Shown: piece by piece, positions 1-17,950 of the stretch
Numbering within the stretch: position 1 is the stretch's first letter
Layout: each line of letters begins with the position of its first letter
NCBI GenBank assembly: GCA_035574235.1
Contig: DATLZA010000100.1
Span: forward strand, 1 to 36,828
Direction of reading: 5' to 3'
Length of the DNA stretch: 36,828 nt
DNA from: Planctomycetota bacterium
GTDB lineage: Bacteria > Planctomycetota > MHYJ01 > JACPRB01
Position numbers and translations under genes: made by a program
Notes under the pieces: model-generated
Database searches by the model: none
Told to the model about the DNA's origin: nothing
Seen by the model: the letters and a program-made list of their open reading frames with translations, nothing else

Positions 1-89
1 ACCGCCGCAGAAGCTTCCGGTCGGCGATCCTCCGCCTCAGGGCGATCCGACGTTCCATTGCCCTCCGCCGTCGACGAGCCATACGACAC
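1..89 (-). CDS. 5' end of an unidentified gene behind the attenuator (partial)
   Basis: This is the first open stretch downstream of the minus-strand attenuator and it runs off the left edge. Two reading frames are open. A GTG at 89 (GGAAG seven bases upstream) gives a Ser/Ala/Glu/Gly-rich start, MSYGSSTAEGNG..., which resembles a low-complexity N-terminal extension. An ATG at 82 (GAGG six bases upstream) gives a strikingly Arg-rich start, MARRRRRAMERR. I cannot tell which is real, and no family is recognisable in about 27 codons. The attenuator upstream predicts a branched-chain amino acid biosynthesis gene such as acetolactate synthase or isopropylmalate synthase. That is inference from regulation, not from this protein sequence. 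Confidence 0.3.
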   Translation of the reverse strand, partial: MSYGSSTAEGNGTSDRPEAEDRRPEASAA

Positions 90-213
90 CTCGGCACTTC
101 CGCCGGGTCGCGGGAAGGGATCGAAGACCCGCGATCCTACCGCGACCGCCCGGCTTCCTTCAAGACCTATCCGCCCTGCCCGCCGGCGCCCGCCGGCCGT
201 CCGGGCCGGGAAC

Positions 214-246
214 AAAAAAACCCGCGTCACCTTTCGGTGGCGCGGG
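214..246 (-). terminator. Intrinsic terminator of the attenuator
   Basis: Read on the minus strand, CCCGCGCCACC (246-236), a GAAA tetraloop (235-232) and GGUGACGCGGG (231-221) form ten base pairs with one A-C mismatch, followed at once by seven U (220-214). This is a complete Rho-independent terminator. It sits roughly 125 nt from the predicted transcript start and before any sizeable ORF, so it would end transcription prematurely rather than after a gene. Confidence 0.85.
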
Positions 247-282
247 TCAAACGTTTCTTCGAAGAGTCCGAGCGCGCGCCAC

Positions 283-336
283 CTAGAAGGTGGCAAGTCG
301 AATGACAAGAATGCAGACTCGGCCGCGCTCGAACAT
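283..336 (-). CDS. Leader peptide, 17 residues, rich in Ile/Leu/Val
   Basis: ATG at 336 to TAG at 285-283 encodes MFERGRVCILVIRLATF. Six of 17 residues are branched-chain (V7, I9, L10, V11, I12, L14), with four in a row. The TAG falls in the loop of the 1:2 hairpin, as expected of a leader peptide whose translation controls RNA folding. There is no Shine-Dalgarno sequence, and the -10 box ends nine bases before the ATG, so the mRNA is probably leaderless or nearly so. Known actinobacterial ilv leader peptides are similarly short, from memory. It could be a chance ORF, but the coincidence of promoter, control codons, stop position and terminator argues against that. Confidence 0.7.
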   Translation of the reverse strand: MFERGRVCILVIRLATF

Positions 337-345
337 CGAGGGATT

Positions 346-374
346 ACTCTACCGGCGCCCCGGAGCCGAGTCAA
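346..374 (-). promoter_or_regulatory. sigma70-type promoter of the attenuated transcript
   Basis: On the minus strand TTGACT (374-369) is separated by exactly 17 bases from TAGAGT (351-346). Predicted +1 is near 339, three bases before the leader-peptide ATG. It is divergent from the aldo/keto reductase promoter. Confidence 0.75.
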
Positions 375-409
375 CAGGAATCTCGTGGACGCCCCCCCGG
401 CCGCGCCGC

Positions 410-415
410 TACAAT
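410..415 (+). promoter_or_regulatory. -10 box of the aldo/keto reductase gene
   Basis: TACAAT (410-415) lies eight bases before the ATG at 424, with a weak -35 candidate TGGACG at 386-391 (18-base spacer). There is no Shine-Dalgarno sequence between box and start, so a leaderless transcript is predicted. Confidence 0.5.
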
Positions 416-7522: not shown

Positions 7523-8794
7523 TCAGGCTCCCGACGGCTGCGCCTCCGGAACGGACGCCCCCGCCTCCTGCGTCCGGGGCGGCCGGAAGAAGACGGCAAG
7601 CGCCACCGCCGCCCCCAGGGCGATCAGCGTGGGCATGATGAACATCGAACGCCAGTCGGTGACCCCGTTCTTCGTGAAGACCTCGTCGAAAAGCACCGGG
7701 CACAGGAAATTGGCCACCAGCTGCCCGATCCCCAGAATCATCACGTTGAAGAGGCCCTGGGCGCTGGAACGCGCATCCTTGGGGAAGAACGCATCCACGA
7801 AGATGTAGACCGTGGCGAAGAAGAACGCGTAGCAGATGCCGTGCAGGACCTGGACCCCGACGACGAGCGCCGGACTCGGCGCGAAGGCGTACACCGCGAA
7901 GCGCGCCGCGTGCCCCAGAATCCCGAGCGTCATCGTCGCCCGCCACCCCAGCTTCTTGAGCACCAGGCCGAGCACCGCCATGGTCAGAATCTCCGAGACC
8001 TGACTGATGCTCATGACGGGCATGATCCATTTGCCCTCCAGACCCACCACGGGGCTGGCCAGAAACCGGCCCGTCCAGCTGAAGTAGCACGTGTGCACGA
8101 ACGAATCCACGAACGTGATGATCCAGAGCACCAGTACGAAGGGATGCCGCAGAAGCTTCATGGCCTCCAGCCAGGCGAGCTTCCCGGCCCCCGCCTCCCC
8201 GGCCTTCCGCGGCGGCGTGTGGGGAAGCGACAGACTGAAGATCGCCAGGGCGAGCGACGCCGCCCCCGCCACGACGTACGTCCACCGCGTGGCGTCCACG
8301 ACCTGCTCCGGATTCAGACCCTGGAAGATGAAATAGATCGGCCAGGCGGCCAGGATCCATCCGATCGTGCCCCCCATGCGGACCAGACCGAACTCCTTCT
8401 GCGCGTCCTTGAGGCTGGCGAACGCGATGGAGTTCGTGATCGAAATCGTGGGCACGTAGAACAGGCAGTGGACCGTCATCAGGGCGAAGAACGGCCAGAA
8501 GCTCCGGGTGAACCCCAGCCCGAGCATCGCCAATCCGCCCACCAGGTGGCTGAAGGCCAGAAACCGCTCCCCGGCGAAGTTGCGGTCCGCGAACTGGTTG
8601 CTGAAGAACATGCCCACGATCGCGGCGACCGGGAACGCGTTCAGGATGAGCGACTGCTGGAGCGAGGAAAAGCCCAGGGCCGGAAGATAGCCGAAAATGA
8701 GGGGCAGCCACGCCCCCCAGATGAAAAACTCCAGCAGCATCATCACGAACAGCCGGGTCCGCAGAAGGGGCATCCCCCGCCGCGCGCCATCCAT
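7523..8794 (-). CDS. MFS permease of the nucleoside:H+ symporter (NupG-like) group
   Basis: A 423-residue inner-membrane transporter with about 12 hydrophobic helices. The opening RTRLFVMMLLEFFIWGAWLP is characteristic of the NupG/XapB-type branch (Nuc_H_symport), and the SLKDAQKEFGLVRMGGTIGW loop also fits. The substrate could be a nucleoside or a sugar; planctomycetes carry many paralogues with unknown substrates. The ATG at 8794 has a near-perfect AGGAGGT at 8807-8801, six bases away, so the 11-residue longer ORF start is rejected. The downstream pterin dehydratase gene follows closely, and a Gfo/Idh/MocA gene lies 58 bases upstream on the same strand, suggesting uptake and oxidation of one substrate. 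Confidence 0.85.
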   Translation of the reverse strand: MDGARRGMPLLRTRLFVMMLLEFFIWGAWLPLIFGYLPALGFSSLQQSLILNAFPVAAIVGMFFSNQFADRNFAGERFLAFSHLVGGLAMLGLGFTRSFWPFFALMTVHCLFYVPTISITNSIAFASLKDAQKEFGLVRMGGTIGWILAAWPIYFIFQGLNPEQVVDATRWTYVVAGAASLALAIFSLSLPHTPPRKAGEAGAGKLAWLEAMKLLRHPFVLVLWIITFVDSFVHTCYFSWTGRFLASPVVGLEGKWIMPVMSISQVSEILTMAVLGLVLKKLGWRATMTLGILGHAARFAVYAFAPSPALVVGVQVLHGICYAFFFATVYIFVDAFFPKDARSSAQGLFNVMILGIGQLVANFLCPVLFDEVFTKNGVTDWRSMFIMPTLIALGAAVALAVFFRPPRTQEAGASVPEAQPSGA

Positions 8795-8852: not shown

Positions 8853-10094
8853 TCACTTCCTTCCCTTGAAGACGTCCTCCGCCGTGTACTCCTCGCGCGC
8901 CGGAGCCGGCACGTACTCGTCCAGCCCTTTCGGGGGCCACGACAGCCGCTCTCCCCGCTCCGCCGACATGTAGCAGGCCATCAGAAGCTTCGTCACCTCC
9001 AGGCCGTCCTCGAAGGTCTCCATAGGCTTCTGCCCCGTGCGGAAGCACTCCACCATGTGCCGGTTCTCGGCCGTGTAGCCGTACTCGCTTTCCTCCTCCG
9101 GCACGACCGGCATGAGCCCCTGCTCGGCCGCCTGCTTTTCGACCAGATCCTCCCCCTCCTTGCCGCGCACCTCGCGGGAGAAGAAGACCTGCAGATGGTT
9201 GTTGAGGGAACTGCCCTGCATGAAGTACTCGGGGCCCATGACCTCCATCGAAAGCCGCAACCCCGGCCCCATGAAGCTCCACGAGGTGGTCACTTCCGTC
9301 AGGACCGGCCGGCCTTCCTCGTCCTCCCAGGTCACGGTCGCCCGGGCGAAGTCCTCGCTGGGGCGGCGCGTGTAATCGACCCCCATGCGCTCCTTGAGCT
9401 TCCGGGCGTAGTCCGGACGGGCCCACTTGAGGGTCGCGATCTCGGCGCTGACGGTGCGGGGTTTGAGGCTGTCGCGCCCCTTGCGGGGATCCGTCAGGAG
9501 GAACCGCGCCGCCTCGATCGAGTGGCACATCATGTCGTTGAGCACGCCGCCGCCCTGCTCCTTCCCCTTCCAGAACCACGGCTCGTGCGGACCGCCGTGC
9601 TCCTCGGCCGCCCGCGCCAGATACGGCCGGCCCGCCGAAGGCACCCCGCGGCGCCAGAGAATCTCCTTGCCCCGGGCCACCATGGGGGCGTACACCTGGT
9701 TCTCGAGGTATCCCGTGTTGAATCCCTTGACCAGCTCCACCACCTTGCGCGCCTCTTTCACGTTGCGCGCCAGCGGCTTCTCGCAGGCGATCCCGAGGAG
9801 CTTCCCCTTGCCGGCGTCCACGATCTCCTGGATCACCTCCACGCGGGAAAAGTTCGGGCTGCACACCCAGATCGCGTCGATCCCGGGCGCCTTGACCATC
9901 TCGGAAATCGAGGTGTACGCCCTGGCCTCCCCCACCCCGAGGTCGCGCGCCAGCTTGGCGGCCTTCTCGGCCTTGGCCCGCGTCCGACTGCACACCCCCA
10001 GAATGTCCGCATGCCGGACGCCCACGAACGACTTGATGTGAAAAGTCCCCACGAACCCGGCGCCGACGACGCCCACCCCGAGCCGCTTCGCCAT
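8853..10094 (-). CDS. Gfo/Idh/MocA family oxidoreductase (second copy)
   Basis: A 413-residue cytosolic NAD(P)-dependent dehydrogenase. GVVGAGFVG (residues 8-16) is the dinucleotide-binding loop and Glu105-Lys106-Pro107 the conserved EKP. The C-terminal domain carries the WFWKGKEQGGGVLNDMMCHSIE segment, with the GG..D.. .H substrate-site pattern of the family. It is only distantly like the copy at 3404 and is about 30 residues longer. AGGGGAG just before the ATG gives a good start. It lies upstream of the MFS permease on the same strand, so a transporter/dehydrogenase pair is likely. Substrate unknown. Confidence 0.87.
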   Translation of the reverse strand: MAKRLGVGVVGAGFVGTFHIKSFVGVRHADILGVCSRTRAKAEKAAKLARDLGVGEARAYTSISEMVKAPGIDAIWVCSPNFSRVEVIQEIVDAGKGKLLGIACEKPLARNVKEARKVVELVKGFNTGYLENQVYAPMVARGKEILWRRGVPSAGRPYLARAAEEHGGPHEPWFWKGKEQGGGVLNDMMCHSIEAARFLLTDPRKGRDSLKPRTVSAEIATLKWARPDYARKLKERMGVDYTRRPSEDFARATVTWEDEEGRPVLTEVTTSWSFMGPGLRLSMEVMGPEYFMQGSSLNNHLQVFFSREVRGKEGEDLVEKQAAEQGLMPVVPEEESEYGYTAENRHMVECFRTGQKPMETFEDGLEVTKLLMACYMSAERGERLSWPPKGLDEYVPAPAREEYTAEDVFKGRK

Positions 10095-10213
10095 AAGTCT
10101 CCCCTTTCGTTTCCCGCGAGAGCCGGTACCTTACCATCCCCGCCCGGCAAATCAAAGCTTTGAAGCCGCCCCGCCGGGACCGAAACGGGATACCCCGCGC
10201 GCCCTCCTTCGGG

Positions 10214-10219
10214 TACACT
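10214..10219 (+). promoter_or_regulatory. -10 box of the EamA transporter gene
   Basis: TACACT (10214-10219) ends eight bases before the ATG at 10228, with only a C-rich stretch between. No Shine-Dalgarno sequence is present, so a leaderless mRNA is predicted. The -35 is not recognisable. Confidence 0.45.
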
Positions 10220-10227
10220 CCCCCGCC

Positions 10228-11139
10228 ATGGCGCCCTACCTCTGGATGCTCCTGGCGGCGGCGAGCTTCGCCACCATGAACGCCCTGGGCCGCGCCGCCT
10301 CCGAACGCGGCGCGGACTGGCGGCTGGTGGCCCTGGCCCGCGTGGGGCTCATGCTCCTTTTCGCCTTCGTCATCGCGCGGGCCGGACGCGTCCGCCTCGC
10401 CTTCCTGCGGCCGCCCGCCCTCTGGATGCGCAGCCTCGCCGGCAGCGCGGCGCTTCTTTCCACCTTCTACTCCGTCACCCACCTGCCCCTTTCGGATGCG
10501 GTCACTCTGATGAACACCGTCCCCGTCTGGGTCACCCTCCTCTCCTGGCCTCTCCTCGGCGAGCGCCCCGGACTCAAGGAAGCCGCCGCCGTGGGCGTCA
10601 GCATGCTCGGCGTCGTCCTGATCGCCCAGCCCCACTTCCGCGAAGGGAACCTCGCCATCCTCGTGGCTCTGGCCAACGCGGCCTTCACGGCCGTGGCCGT
10701 CCTGGGACTGCATCGCCTGGGGGGGATCGACCCTCGCGCGGTCGTCGTCCACTTCTCCGCCGTGGCCACGGCGGTGGGCGGCGCGGTCCTGTCCCTTTCG
10801 GGCCTGGAACCGCATCTGCCGGCGCTCCGAAACGCCCAGGCGATGGCGCTCCTCGTGGGCGTGGCCCTCGTGGGAACCGTGGGACAGATCGGGCTCACCC
10901 GCGCCTTCGCGCTCGGAGTGCCCGCGCGCGTCTCCGTGGTGGGCCTCACCCAGCTCCTCTTCGCGGTCGGCTACGACGTCTTCCTCTGGCACCGCACGGT
11001 GAACGCCTGGGCCGCGGCCGGCATGATCCTTGTGGCCGCCCCCACCGCGTGGCTCCTCCTGCGCCGCGCGCTCCGCCGGAATCGCGCCGGCGGGAATGAA
11101 GAAATCGTCAAACGCGACGAACTTTCCGCCGTCCCATAG
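10228..11139 (+). CDS. EamA/DMT family transporter
   Basis: A 303-residue inner-membrane protein with ten predicted helices in two five-helix EamA repeats, normal for the drug/metabolite transporter superfamily. The YSVTHLPLSDAVTLMNTVPVWVTLLSWPLLGERP stretch at the end of the first repeat is the diagnostic EamA region, with the typical basic-plus-Glu GERP loop. Likely an exporter of an amino acid, metabolite or drug; the substrate cannot be inferred. It is a single-gene unit: the upstream neighbour is divergent, and the downstream protease gene has its own strong ribosome binding site after 53 bases. It appears to be translated from a leaderless transcript. Confidence 0.85.
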   Translation: MAPYLWMLLAAASFATMNALGRAASERGADWRLVALARVGLMLLFAFVIARAGRVRLAFLRPPALWMRSLAGSAALLSTFYSVTHLPLSDAVTLMNTVPVWVTLLSWPLLGERPGLKEAAAVGVSMLGVVLIAQPHFREGNLAILVALANAAFTAVAVLGLHRLGGIDPRAVVVHFSAVATAVGGAVLSLSGLEPHLPALRNAQAMALLVGVALVGTVGQIGLTRAFALGVPARVSVVGLTQLLFAVGYDVFLWHRTVNAWAAAGMILVAAPTAWLLLRRALRRNRAGGNEEIVKRDELSAVP

Positions 11140-15264: not shown

Positions 15265-16776
15265 TTATCCGACGTGGGTGAAGGGCGTGCCGCCCGCCGG
15301 CGCCCCTTGAGGGTTTTCCGAGATGAGACGCGCGTAGTACCGCTCCTGCCGCTCCGTCGCCCGCGCATAGCGGGCGTGCCGCGCCGGATCGGGCTCGAAA
15401 CGCCGGCCCGTCCGCGCCGGAAGATCCTCCAGCCGCCCGACCTTCCCCAGCGCCTCCAGCGCCAGGAGCGCCGCCCCGCGGCAGGACGCTTCCGGCTCCT
15501 CCGAAGCCGCGACCGGAACCCCCAGAGCGTCCGCCAGAATCTGCATCCAGGCCGAAGACCGCAGGAGCGCCCCTCCCGAAGCCACGGCCTCCCGCACCCC
15601 TTCGAGCCGCCGAAGGATCAGGCGGAAGCGGCAGGCCACCGCCTCCATCGCCGCCCGCAGAATCTCGACCGGCCGCGTCGCCATCCGGAGCCCCACGATC
15701 GCCCCCCGCGCATCCGCCGCCCATCCCGGGCTGCGCTCGCCGGCCAGAAGCGGCAGAAACGTCAGGCCGTGAGCGTCCGGCTCCATTCCGGCGACCTCCC
15801 TTTCCGCCTCCTCCGGCAGCCGAAACGTCCGCCGCGCCCACTCGATCAGATTGCCCCCGTCGTTGAGCGCTCCGCCGACGACCCCACGGCGCCGGTCCAC
15901 TCGATAGGCGAAAAGCCCCGGTAGCGCCCCCAAGCGCTCGGCCGGCACGACGACACGGAGCGCCCCCGAGGTGCCGACCATGACCCCCGCGCGTTCGGGC
16001 GTCACGGCGCCGGCGCCGAGGTTGTTGCAGGCGCCGTCCCCGACCGGCGGAAACCACGGAAGGTCCCGCAACGCCGGCCACCGCCGGGCCCCCTCGGGCC
16101 GCAGGCCGCGGAACGCGTCCCCCACGTCTCCGAGCGGCGAGAGCTGCTCCTGCCGGACGCCGGCGGCCCTCAGGATTTCCTCGTCGTAGAGACAGGATCG
16201 GACATCGAGAAGGCCGGTGGCGGAAGCCATGGACACGGTCGCCCGAAACCGCCCGAACCAGCGGGCGTACAGAAATTCGCCGAACGATACCCAGCGGGCC
16301 GCTCGGGCGAAGACGTCGGGCTGCGTCCGGGCGATCCAGCGAAGCTTGGCCGGATGATAGCACGGATGGAGAAAACATCCCGTCCGTTCGTGGTAGGCCG
16401 CCTCGTCGAGGGACGCCCGCAGGGAGCGCGCCTCCGCCGCGCTGCGCAGGTCCGCCCAGGTGTAAAGCGGAGTCACGGGCTCCCCCGCCGCATCCACGCC
16501 CATCAGGCTGTGCCAGAAGGTGCAACAGGCCACGGCCGCCGGAGAAAAGCGTTCCGCCCGGACGGCCGCCTCGTCCAGAAGATCCTCCACCGCCGCCGTC
16601 AATTCCGCGGGATCGAAGTCCCCCCCTCCGTCGGCGGTCGCGCGGGGACGGTAGGACCGGCGCGTTTCGAAGTCCGGCACGGCGCGCCCCGCGCCGTCGA
16701 AAAGAAGGGCCCGGGCGGAGGAAGTCCCTACGTCGAGCGTCAGCACGAAGGGCGCTTCAGGCGCGGGCGGCGTCAT
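15265..16776 (-). CDS. FGGY family carbohydrate kinase
   Basis: A 503-residue cytosolic sugar kinase (gluconokinase/xylulokinase superfamily). The N-terminal phosphate loop LTLDVGTSSARALLFD, the substrate-site region GDGACNNLGAG with its catalytic Asp, the VGTSGALRV ATP loop, and a C-terminal ASGGALLRSSAWMQILAD motif are all present at normal spacing. CNNLGAG is closest to the gluconokinase-like branch, but the sugar is not certain. I start at the ATG at 16776, which follows AGGTGG and overlaps the nagA end by 20 bases, implying translational coupling. The Arg/Trp-rich 20-residue extension of the open frame is unlikely to be translated. Pairing with NagA suggests amino-sugar or related sugar use. 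Confidence 0.88.
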   Translation of the reverse strand: MTPPAPEAPFVLTLDVGTSSARALLFDGAGRAVPDFETRRSYRPRATADGGGDFDPAELTAAVEDLLDEAAVRAERFSPAAVACCTFWHSLMGVDAAGEPVTPLYTWADLRSAAEARSLRASLDEAAYHERTGCFLHPCYHPAKLRWIARTQPDVFARAARWVSFGEFLYARWFGRFRATVSMASATGLLDVRSCLYDEEILRAAGVRQEQLSPLGDVGDAFRGLRPEGARRWPALRDLPWFPPVGDGACNNLGAGAVTPERAGVMVGTSGALRVVVPAERLGALPGLFAYRVDRRRGVVGGALNDGGNLIEWARRTFRLPEEAEREVAGMEPDAHGLTFLPLLAGERSPGWAADARGAIVGLRMATRPVEILRAAMEAVACRFRLILRRLEGVREAVASGGALLRSSAWMQILADALGVPVAASEEPEASCRGAALLALEALGKVGRLEDLPARTGRRFEPDPARHARYARATERQERYYARLISENPQGAPAGGTPFTHVG

Positions 16777-17950
16777 AGACCACCTGTCCCCGCGCCAGCG
16801 TCCACCGGACCTCCAGCCGCGGCTCGGTCGAAACAAGCACGATGTCCGCGTCTTTCCCCGGATCCAGCGCGCCCTTGCGGTCGGCCACTCCGGCCAGAAC
16901 CGCCGGGATCAGGCTCGCGCGGCGGACCGCCTGCTCCAGCGACAGGCCCAGCGCCTCCACGGCGTTTCGGACCAGATCGATCATCCGCGCGGTCGAGCTG
17001 GCGAAGCCGGTGTTGGAGAGATTCCTCGCGACGCCGCCCTCGACGACGGCGGGCGTCCCCCGCGCCGAACCGAACGTGTACGTTCCGTCGGGCATTCCGG
17101 CGCCCCGCATGGCGTCGGTCACGAAGCATACCGCGCGCTCGGCCTTCGCCTTCATCGCCAGAAGCAGGAGCTCCCGCGGCACGTGCTTGAGGTCCGCGAT
17201 GAGCTCCGTCCCCAGCCGGTCGTCCAGAAGCGCGGCCTCGAGCATCCCCGGAACGCGGAAGGGGCCCTGCTTGACGATCGTGGACATCGCCGAATAGAGG
17301 TGCGTGATCATCGACATCCCGGCGTCCAGGGCGCGCAGCGTCTCCTCGAGCGTCGCGTTGCTGTGGCCCCCCGAAGGAACGATCCCGCGGCGGGACGCCT
17401 CCCGGATGAATTCGAGGACGCCGGGAACCTCCGGGGCGAGCGTGATCCGCCGGATGACGGCCGCGCGGTCCAGGTAGGCGCGGTTCTCCTCCGGCGAGGG
17501 CGGCCGAACGAACCCCGGATCGTGGCAGCCGCTCTTGCCGGGAGCCATGTAGGGACCTTCCACGTGAACGCCGAGGATCTCGACCCCGCCGATCCTCTGC
17601 TCCCGGCAGCGCGCGGCCATGTCGATCGCGGCCAGGATCGCCTCCGGCGACTCCGTGGCGGTCGTGGGCAGGTAGGCGGTGGTGCCCCCGGAGGCGTGGA
17701 ACCGACCGATCGTGTCGAAGGCCTCCTCCGTGGCGTCCATGAAATCGGCTCCGCGGCCGCCGTGAACGTGCAGATCGATGAAGCCCGGACAGGCCGTCAG
17801 GCCCGCGCCGTCGAGACGCCGGGCGCCGGGGGGCACGGGCCCGCCCGACGGGGTCACCGCCGCCAGGCGCTCCCCGGCGACGTGGAGATCCCACGTCCCC
17901 GGCCGCCCCGGCAACCGAACGGACGTCAGGACGAGGGACACCGGCGCCAT
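16757..17950 (-). CDS. nagA: N-acetylglucosamine-6-phosphate deacetylase
   Basis: A 397-residue amidohydrolase that removes acetate from GlcNAc-6-phosphate to give glucosamine-6-phosphate, for cell-wall recycling or chitin use. The metal- and substrate-binding motifs occur in order: DLHVHGG, GVHVEGPYM, SGGHSNAT, MITHLYSAMS and the catalytic Asp in FVTDAMRGAG. C-terminal DPGKDADIVLV is typical of the amidohydrolase beta-sandwich. The ATG at 17950 matches the family N-terminus; no good ribosome binding site is seen, but the upstream gene stops 12 bases before, so coupling is plausible. No nagB is present here. The following FGGY kinase overlaps it. Confidence 0.92.
   Translation of the reverse strand: MAPVSLVLTSVRLPGRPGTWDLHVAGERLAAVTPSGGPVPPGARRLDGAGLTACPGFIDLHVHGGRGADFMDATEEAFDTIGRFHASGGTTAYLPTTATESPEAILAAIDMAARCREQRIGGVEILGVHVEGPYMAPGKSGCHDPGFVRPPSPEENRAYLDRAAVIRRITLAPEVPGVLEFIREASRRGIVPSGGHSNATLEETLRALDAGMSMITHLYSAMSTIVKQGPFRVPGMLEAALLDDRLGTELIADLKHVPRELLLLAMKAKAERAVCFVTDAMRGAGMPDGTYTFGSARGTPAVVEGGVARNLSNTGFASSTARMIDLVRNAVEALGLSLEQAVRRASLIPAVLAGVADRKGALDPGKDADIVLVSTEPRLEVRWTLARGQVVYDAARA

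Follow-up and report, generated by a model that had tools for sequence, protein, structure and literature searches.

A probable ribosome-mediated transcription attenuator upstream of an ilvDCGM operon in Planctomycetota

The window analysed here spans contig C100 (36,828 bases) from end to end; the contig comes from a draft genome (G000; 4.06 Mb, 203 contigs) whose source belongs to the Planctomycetota, in agreement with the planctomycete-like background suggested by the first-pass annotation. The element under study, a leader at 214-374, lies on the minus strand and is directed toward position 1 and off the end of the contig; because C100 stops at position 1, the gene downstream is unreadable from the window. 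Its divergent neighbour on the plus strand is an aldo/keto reductase gene (PF00248; 424-1530, ATG at 424), which the leader does not overlap. The leader had been described as hidden antisense to another ORF, a description that has to be abandoned: that ORF, rejected here as a candidate gene, is only a stretch of reading frame that happens to stay open ahead of the aldo/keto reductase start codon at 424. A promoter-like sequence (TGGACG-18-TACAAT, 386-415, plus strand) points toward the aldo/keto reductase gene, back-to-back with the leader promoter. In G001, a genome of another genus in the same family, the position of the aldo/keto reductase gene is occupied by an unrelated gene, and the upstream genes differ between both genomes.

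The leader promoter comprises a -35 element TTGACT (369-374) and a -10 element TAGAGT (346-351), both on the minus strand and separated by 17 nt; the corresponding sequence in G001 is TTGACT-18-TATACT, and in G002, which represents a third genus, the two hexamers read TTGACC and TAAACT. A promoter scan of 1.5 kb returned 2 sites versus 0.1 expected. The distance from the -10 element to the ATG is 9 nt in G000, 10 nt in G001, and 9 nt in G002, so the leader 5′ UTR would measure only about 0-4 nt, and a leaderless mRNA, with a near-absent 5′ UTR, is plausible from this promoter spacing. The ORF that begins there (283-336, minus strand; ATG at 336-334, TAG at 285-283) encodes the 17-codon peptide MFERGRVCILVIRLATF, for which a homologous leader exists in G001. 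Its putative control codons, GTC TGC ATT CTT GTC ATT CGA CTT (V-C-I-L-V-I-R-L; 295-318, minus strand), include a best stretch in which five of six codons specify Ile, Leu, or Val (I/L/V, or ILV). In six genes sampled from G000, ATT accounts for 7% of Ile codons and CTT for 14% of Leu codons; this rarity is not taken as proof, since non-coding DNA is also expected to show rare codons.

The RNA-level features downstream of these codons, all on the minus strand, can be resolved into three segments and two mutually exclusive structures. Segment 1 (GTTCGAGCGCG, 324-334) is the 5′ arm of a long 1:2 helix whose 3′ arm is CGCGCTCGGAC (266-276), and in the minimum-energy fold of the leader this helix (334-324/276-266) encloses a small hairpin located where the leader ORF ends, and the terminator is also formed. 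The small hairpin (GCCACC/GGUGGC, 277-295; 294-289 with 283-278) carries the stop codon at its tip. Segment 2 (GGUGGCGCG, 275-283), whose first base is the G of the TAG stop, is the 5′ arm of the antiterminator and forms nine perfect pairs with segment 3 (CGCGCCACC, 236-244), a pairing (283-275/244-236) that excludes the terminator because segment 3 is common to the antiterminator and the 5′ arm of the terminator. The latter is an intrinsic terminator at 214-247, ACCCGCG C CACC GAAA GGTG A CGCGGGT, followed by a T-run with seven T at 220-214. Geometrically, the UAG at 285-283 abuts segment 2, and the control codons lie 12-35 nt upstream. Every part named by the first-pass annotation, from TTGACT-17-TAGAGT through the 17-codon peptide, the hairpin, and the nine-base pairing to the terminator with its seven T, was found in place when re-read from the sequence. 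Its account of the hairpin at 294-289/283-278 needs amendment: the hairpin is present, and its loop contains the stop codon only in part, with G 283 of the TAG lying in the stem and in segment 2, whereas the main sequestering helix is the larger one at 334-324/276-266.

Computed folds in which parts of the leader were withheld are consistent with an exchange between these structures. When the leader upstream of 283 is left out, mimicking a stalled ribosome, the fold of 283-205 (-31.8 kcal/mol) favours the antiterminator, and when 283-273 is hidden as well, mimicking a ribosome at the stop codon, the terminator forms. The G001 leader folds with the same topology, its 1:2 helix differing from that of the window by two compensatory changes and one GU-to-GC change, and its antiterminator retains 9 of 10 pairs with one mismatch; with just these two leaders close enough for alignment, the covariation evidence is small.

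The operon that this leader precedes can be identified by joining contigs. In G000, ilvD lies on the minus strand of contig C23, with its ATG 55 nt from the contig end, and the 10-mer at positions 1-10 of the window (CTGCGGCGGT, minus strand) is identical to the C23 end (8445-8454) upstream of ilvD. Of 34 copies of this 10-mer in G000, only two are at contig ends, those of C100 and C23, in an orientation compatible with a leader-ilvD join. That C100 continues into C23, placing the leader before ilvD at a distance of about 260 nt, is thus a strong inference, its basis being a 10-nt overlap between draft-genome contigs. The gene order on C23 is ilvD-ilvC-ilvG(B)-ilvM, in which the acetolactate synthase large subunit (L122; C23 4003-5670, minus strand) has its best NCBIfam match to PRK08978 (NF006524), of the ilvG type, and the last gene encodes a small, ilvM-like subunit of the ACT type. 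The prediction that a branched-chain amino acid (BCAA) gene would follow the leader is therefore borne out, here by the unique contig-end overlap and in G001, G003, and G002 by direct synteny.

Several further features accompany this junction. A short Arg-rich, putatively coding ORF (1-82, minus strand) follows GAGGTG and is open at the contig end; joined to C23, it reads MARRRRRAMERRIALRRRIADRKLLRRFVRAFGRREPLEKTRNA up to its stop codon, and its 3′ end overlaps the ilvD start (AATGCTTAG), an arrangement in which translational coupling is possible. A Pfam search of this ORF gave no match. In G002, a short ORF likewise lies between attenuator and ilvM. Downstream of the terminator, TTGAAG-18-TAGGAT (134-163, minus strand), with the G001 counterpart TTGAAG-17-TAGGAT, is possibly a second promoter that would serve ilvD independently of attenuation. 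The closest named full-length homologues of ilvD come from Acidobacteria, Rokubacteria, and others, and, considered together with the ilvG-type synthase, they suggest that the ilvDCGM operon may have been acquired horizontally. Elsewhere in G000, a region upstream of leuA (L163; C158 ~16760-16869, minus strand) carries the peptide MVWRHGRDLPQALSLPLTGGSR, two segments that pair (GGGGAGCCGC and GCGGTTCCCC), and a weak terminator, and is a possible candidate for a separate leucine attenuator.

GC-rich DNA yields random hairpins and short ORFs, so the leader could in principle be an ordinary intrinsic terminator, perhaps one ending a transcript from upstream or from the opposite strand, that sits near a chance short ORF and performs no attenuation. 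A scan of both strands of the 36.8-kb window for the full combination (a terminator, a short ORF in which four or more of six codons are I/L/V, and an antiterminator that has eight or more pairs and shares the terminator 5′ arm) returned a single instance, the leader at 214-374, and dinucleotide-shuffled windows contained 0.05 such combinations each (3 in 60). Conditional on the terminator, 0.12% of shuffled leaders showed an antiterminator with nine or more Watson-Crick pairs (P = 0.0012), which speaks against a chance terminator; by themselves these statistics would be suggestive, and the comparative evidence decides. In G001, the leader MKPAARVIRIVRLPAC, then a stop codon, and the same terminator stem stand directly before ilvD on one contig. 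That genome has kept the promoter, the stop codon, segment 2, and the terminator, while its spacers have diverged; both terminator stem arms and the T-run are identical, and the loop is different. This conservation persists although the upstream genes of the two genomes differ, as noted above, which is hard to reconcile with a terminator belonging to an upstream transcript.

A covariance model built from the G000 and G001 leaders only was searched against related genomes, a check suggested by the first-pass annotation, and matched G002, of the same family, with 28.7 bits (E 0.005 per genome), a match that is weak taken alone. The matched locus (L158; G002:C324 ~10009-10345, minus strand) holds two attenuators of different build in tandem before ilvM. 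The first, MKSRACLLNVPMITAGGGGAR, has the window's exact GGUGGCGCG/CGCGCCACC pair; promoter layout and terminator recur there as well, with diverged spacers. The second, MMMNLRDMLVVLNLCVITPRCGPPV, is of the type seen in G003. The gene behind both, after the short ORF, codes for a small protein with an ACT domain (Pfam ACT_5 at 26.8 bits, against a cut-off of 27), whose matches in G000, G001, and G003 sit just behind ilvG/ilvB genes; that a match found by the two-leader model appears to precede a BCAA gene is independent support for the assignment. G003 itself has the classical ILV leader MSPNLTSLALVLGLTLSLLVIITGRCGPP, an antiterminator GAGGUGCGGG/CCCGCACCUC, and a terminator, and then ilvD followed by ilvC, ilvB, an ilvM-like gene, and a leuA-type gene. 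ILV codons are present in the leaders of all three relatives, although the peptides differ, with no sequence conservation from genus to genus. The expectation that homologous leaders would keep both the ILV codons and the alternative pairing is thus supported, with the 9-mer pair identical in G002 and nearly complete in G001. A BCAA gene stands behind the element every time in the window's family, and with the conservation and the pairing statistics above this makes a chance terminator very unlikely. Two other matches of the covariance model, in G115 (L157; no BCAA gene) and in G010 (E 0.06), were rejected as showing a similar terminator only, and a second DNA match within G000 itself (C105), comprising 31 GC-rich bases that lie past the terminator, was put down to chance.

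Beyond this family, ilvD leaders with ILV-rich peptides and hairpins were found in other planctomycete families (L130 and L131 in f16, L132 in f52, and L133 in f38), and likewise in other phyla at 12 loci (L039, L051, L055, L056, L063, L065, L076, L089, L097, L099, L107, and L117). In a strict scan, the elements occurred in 10 of 106 ilvD upstream regions, the window included, versus 4 of the 2697 windows drawn from these loci as controls. The upstream regions of many close ilvD homologues (e.g., L038 and L040-L048) have no such leader, and the ILV leader is therefore not universal before ilvD. That attenuators of this kind precede ilvD or ilvM in four families of planctomycetes, and ilvD in further phyla, suggests a wide distribution along with this ilvD lineage.

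Taken together, the minus-strand element at 214-374 is very probably a ribosome-mediated transcription attenuator that controls ilvD-ilvC-ilvG(B)-ilvM, and from its architecture we infer the transcription start, leader translation, ribosome stalling, and the response to amino acids. Transcription would start at, or a few bases from, the leader AUG. With Ile-, Val-, and Leu-tRNAs charged, the ribosome would reach the UAG at 285-283 and cover segment 2, leaving segment 3 to fold into the terminator and transcription to stop at about position 214. If Ile, Val, or Leu were short, the ribosome would stall on the V-C-I-L-V-I-R-L codons and open the long 1:2 helix and the small hairpin, and the freed segment 2 would pair with segment 3, blocking the terminator and allowing RNA polymerase to read about 260 nt further into ilvD. 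If the leader went untranslated, segment 2 would be sequestered by the 1:2 helix, making the terminator the default.

The ilvL-ilvGMEDA and ilvB leaders of Proteobacteria are classical ribosome-mediated attenuators. The window leader resembles them in its ILV-codon leader peptide, its exclusive antiterminator and terminator, and its downstream BCAA operon, and the operon itself resembles ilvGMEDA in having a synthase of the ilvG type with an ilvM-like subunit. It differs in its short peptide of 17 codons with few control codons, the stop codon immediately before segment 2, the predicted near-absent 5′ UTR, the Planctomycetota host, and the gene order ilvDCGM. An ILV leader peptide and a terminator before a BCAA operon are likewise found in the ilvBNC leaders of Corynebacterium, Mycobacterium, and Streptomyces (PMC1262725), from which the window differs in sequence and layout and in having ilvD as its first gene; the title of a further paper on such leaders names a three-hairpin model (PMC11857589). 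Among Rfam families, Leu_leader (RF00512) represents the same mechanism class and gives sub-threshold matches at the planctomycete ilvD leaders L130 and L131.

These comparisons also bear on whether the leader might respond to BCAAs by another route, such as translation coupling, Rho, or a riboswitch that binds a metabolite, in which case the peptide would be incidental. A precedent is the ilvB leader of Streptomyces coelicolor, in which codon changes were without effect despite an attenuator-like leader (PMC1262725). For the window, an Rfam search of the leader gave no riboswitch, T-box, or Leu_leader match with E up to 5, the exchange of terminator and antiterminator fully explains the hairpins, and the ILV codons are retained while the peptides differ, all of which renders such a route extremely improbable. 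Matches to DUF3800-IX and anti-hemB (E 0.19-0.71) were rejected, being far below gathering scores and covering just the terminator or the leader.

The predicted 5′ end also invites comparison with Sinorhizobium meliloti trpLE(G), whose leader mRNA begins at the leader AUG (leaderless trpL; PMC7298713) and whose terminated leader RNA and peptide, rnTrpL and peTrpL, are reported to act in trans. That system concerns tryptophan rather than BCAAs, and its 5′ end is reported, whereas that of the window is deduced from the -10-to-ATG spacing. The match to leaderless rnTrpL raises the question of whether the terminated RNA could be a product in its own right, with a role in trans either as a small RNA or as a leaderless mini-mRNA. 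No sequence feature indicates trans targets and the peptide is not conserved between genera, so that we assign this reading a very low probability; a trans-acting leader RNA would in any case be compatible with attenuation, coexisting with it rather than replacing it.

In the openly accessible literature searched, to which the 2010 Lopatovskaya survey cited in PMC4833913 does not belong, no published case of an amino-acid operon attenuated by a leader peptide came to light for Planctomycetes. On sequence evidence, the window appears to present a genuine and well-supported case of classical attenuation, a known type of bacterial control, here at a planctomycete ilvDCGM operon. A broader reading, to which we give slightly less than an even chance, is that it belongs to a planctomycete lineage of BCAA attenuators whose peptides are made from leaderless mRNA and which, in G002, is stacked with the second, differently built attenuator before ilvM to form a two-step or multi-amino-acid gate. 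Leader-peptide attenuation depends on a temporal and spatial coupling of translation to transcription, and Planctomycetes have an unusual cell plan. The window attenuator offers a simple reporter for transcription-translation coupling in Planctomycetota, and both the near-absent 5′ UTR predicted for it and the stacked attenuators of G002 would be useful variants of attenuation.
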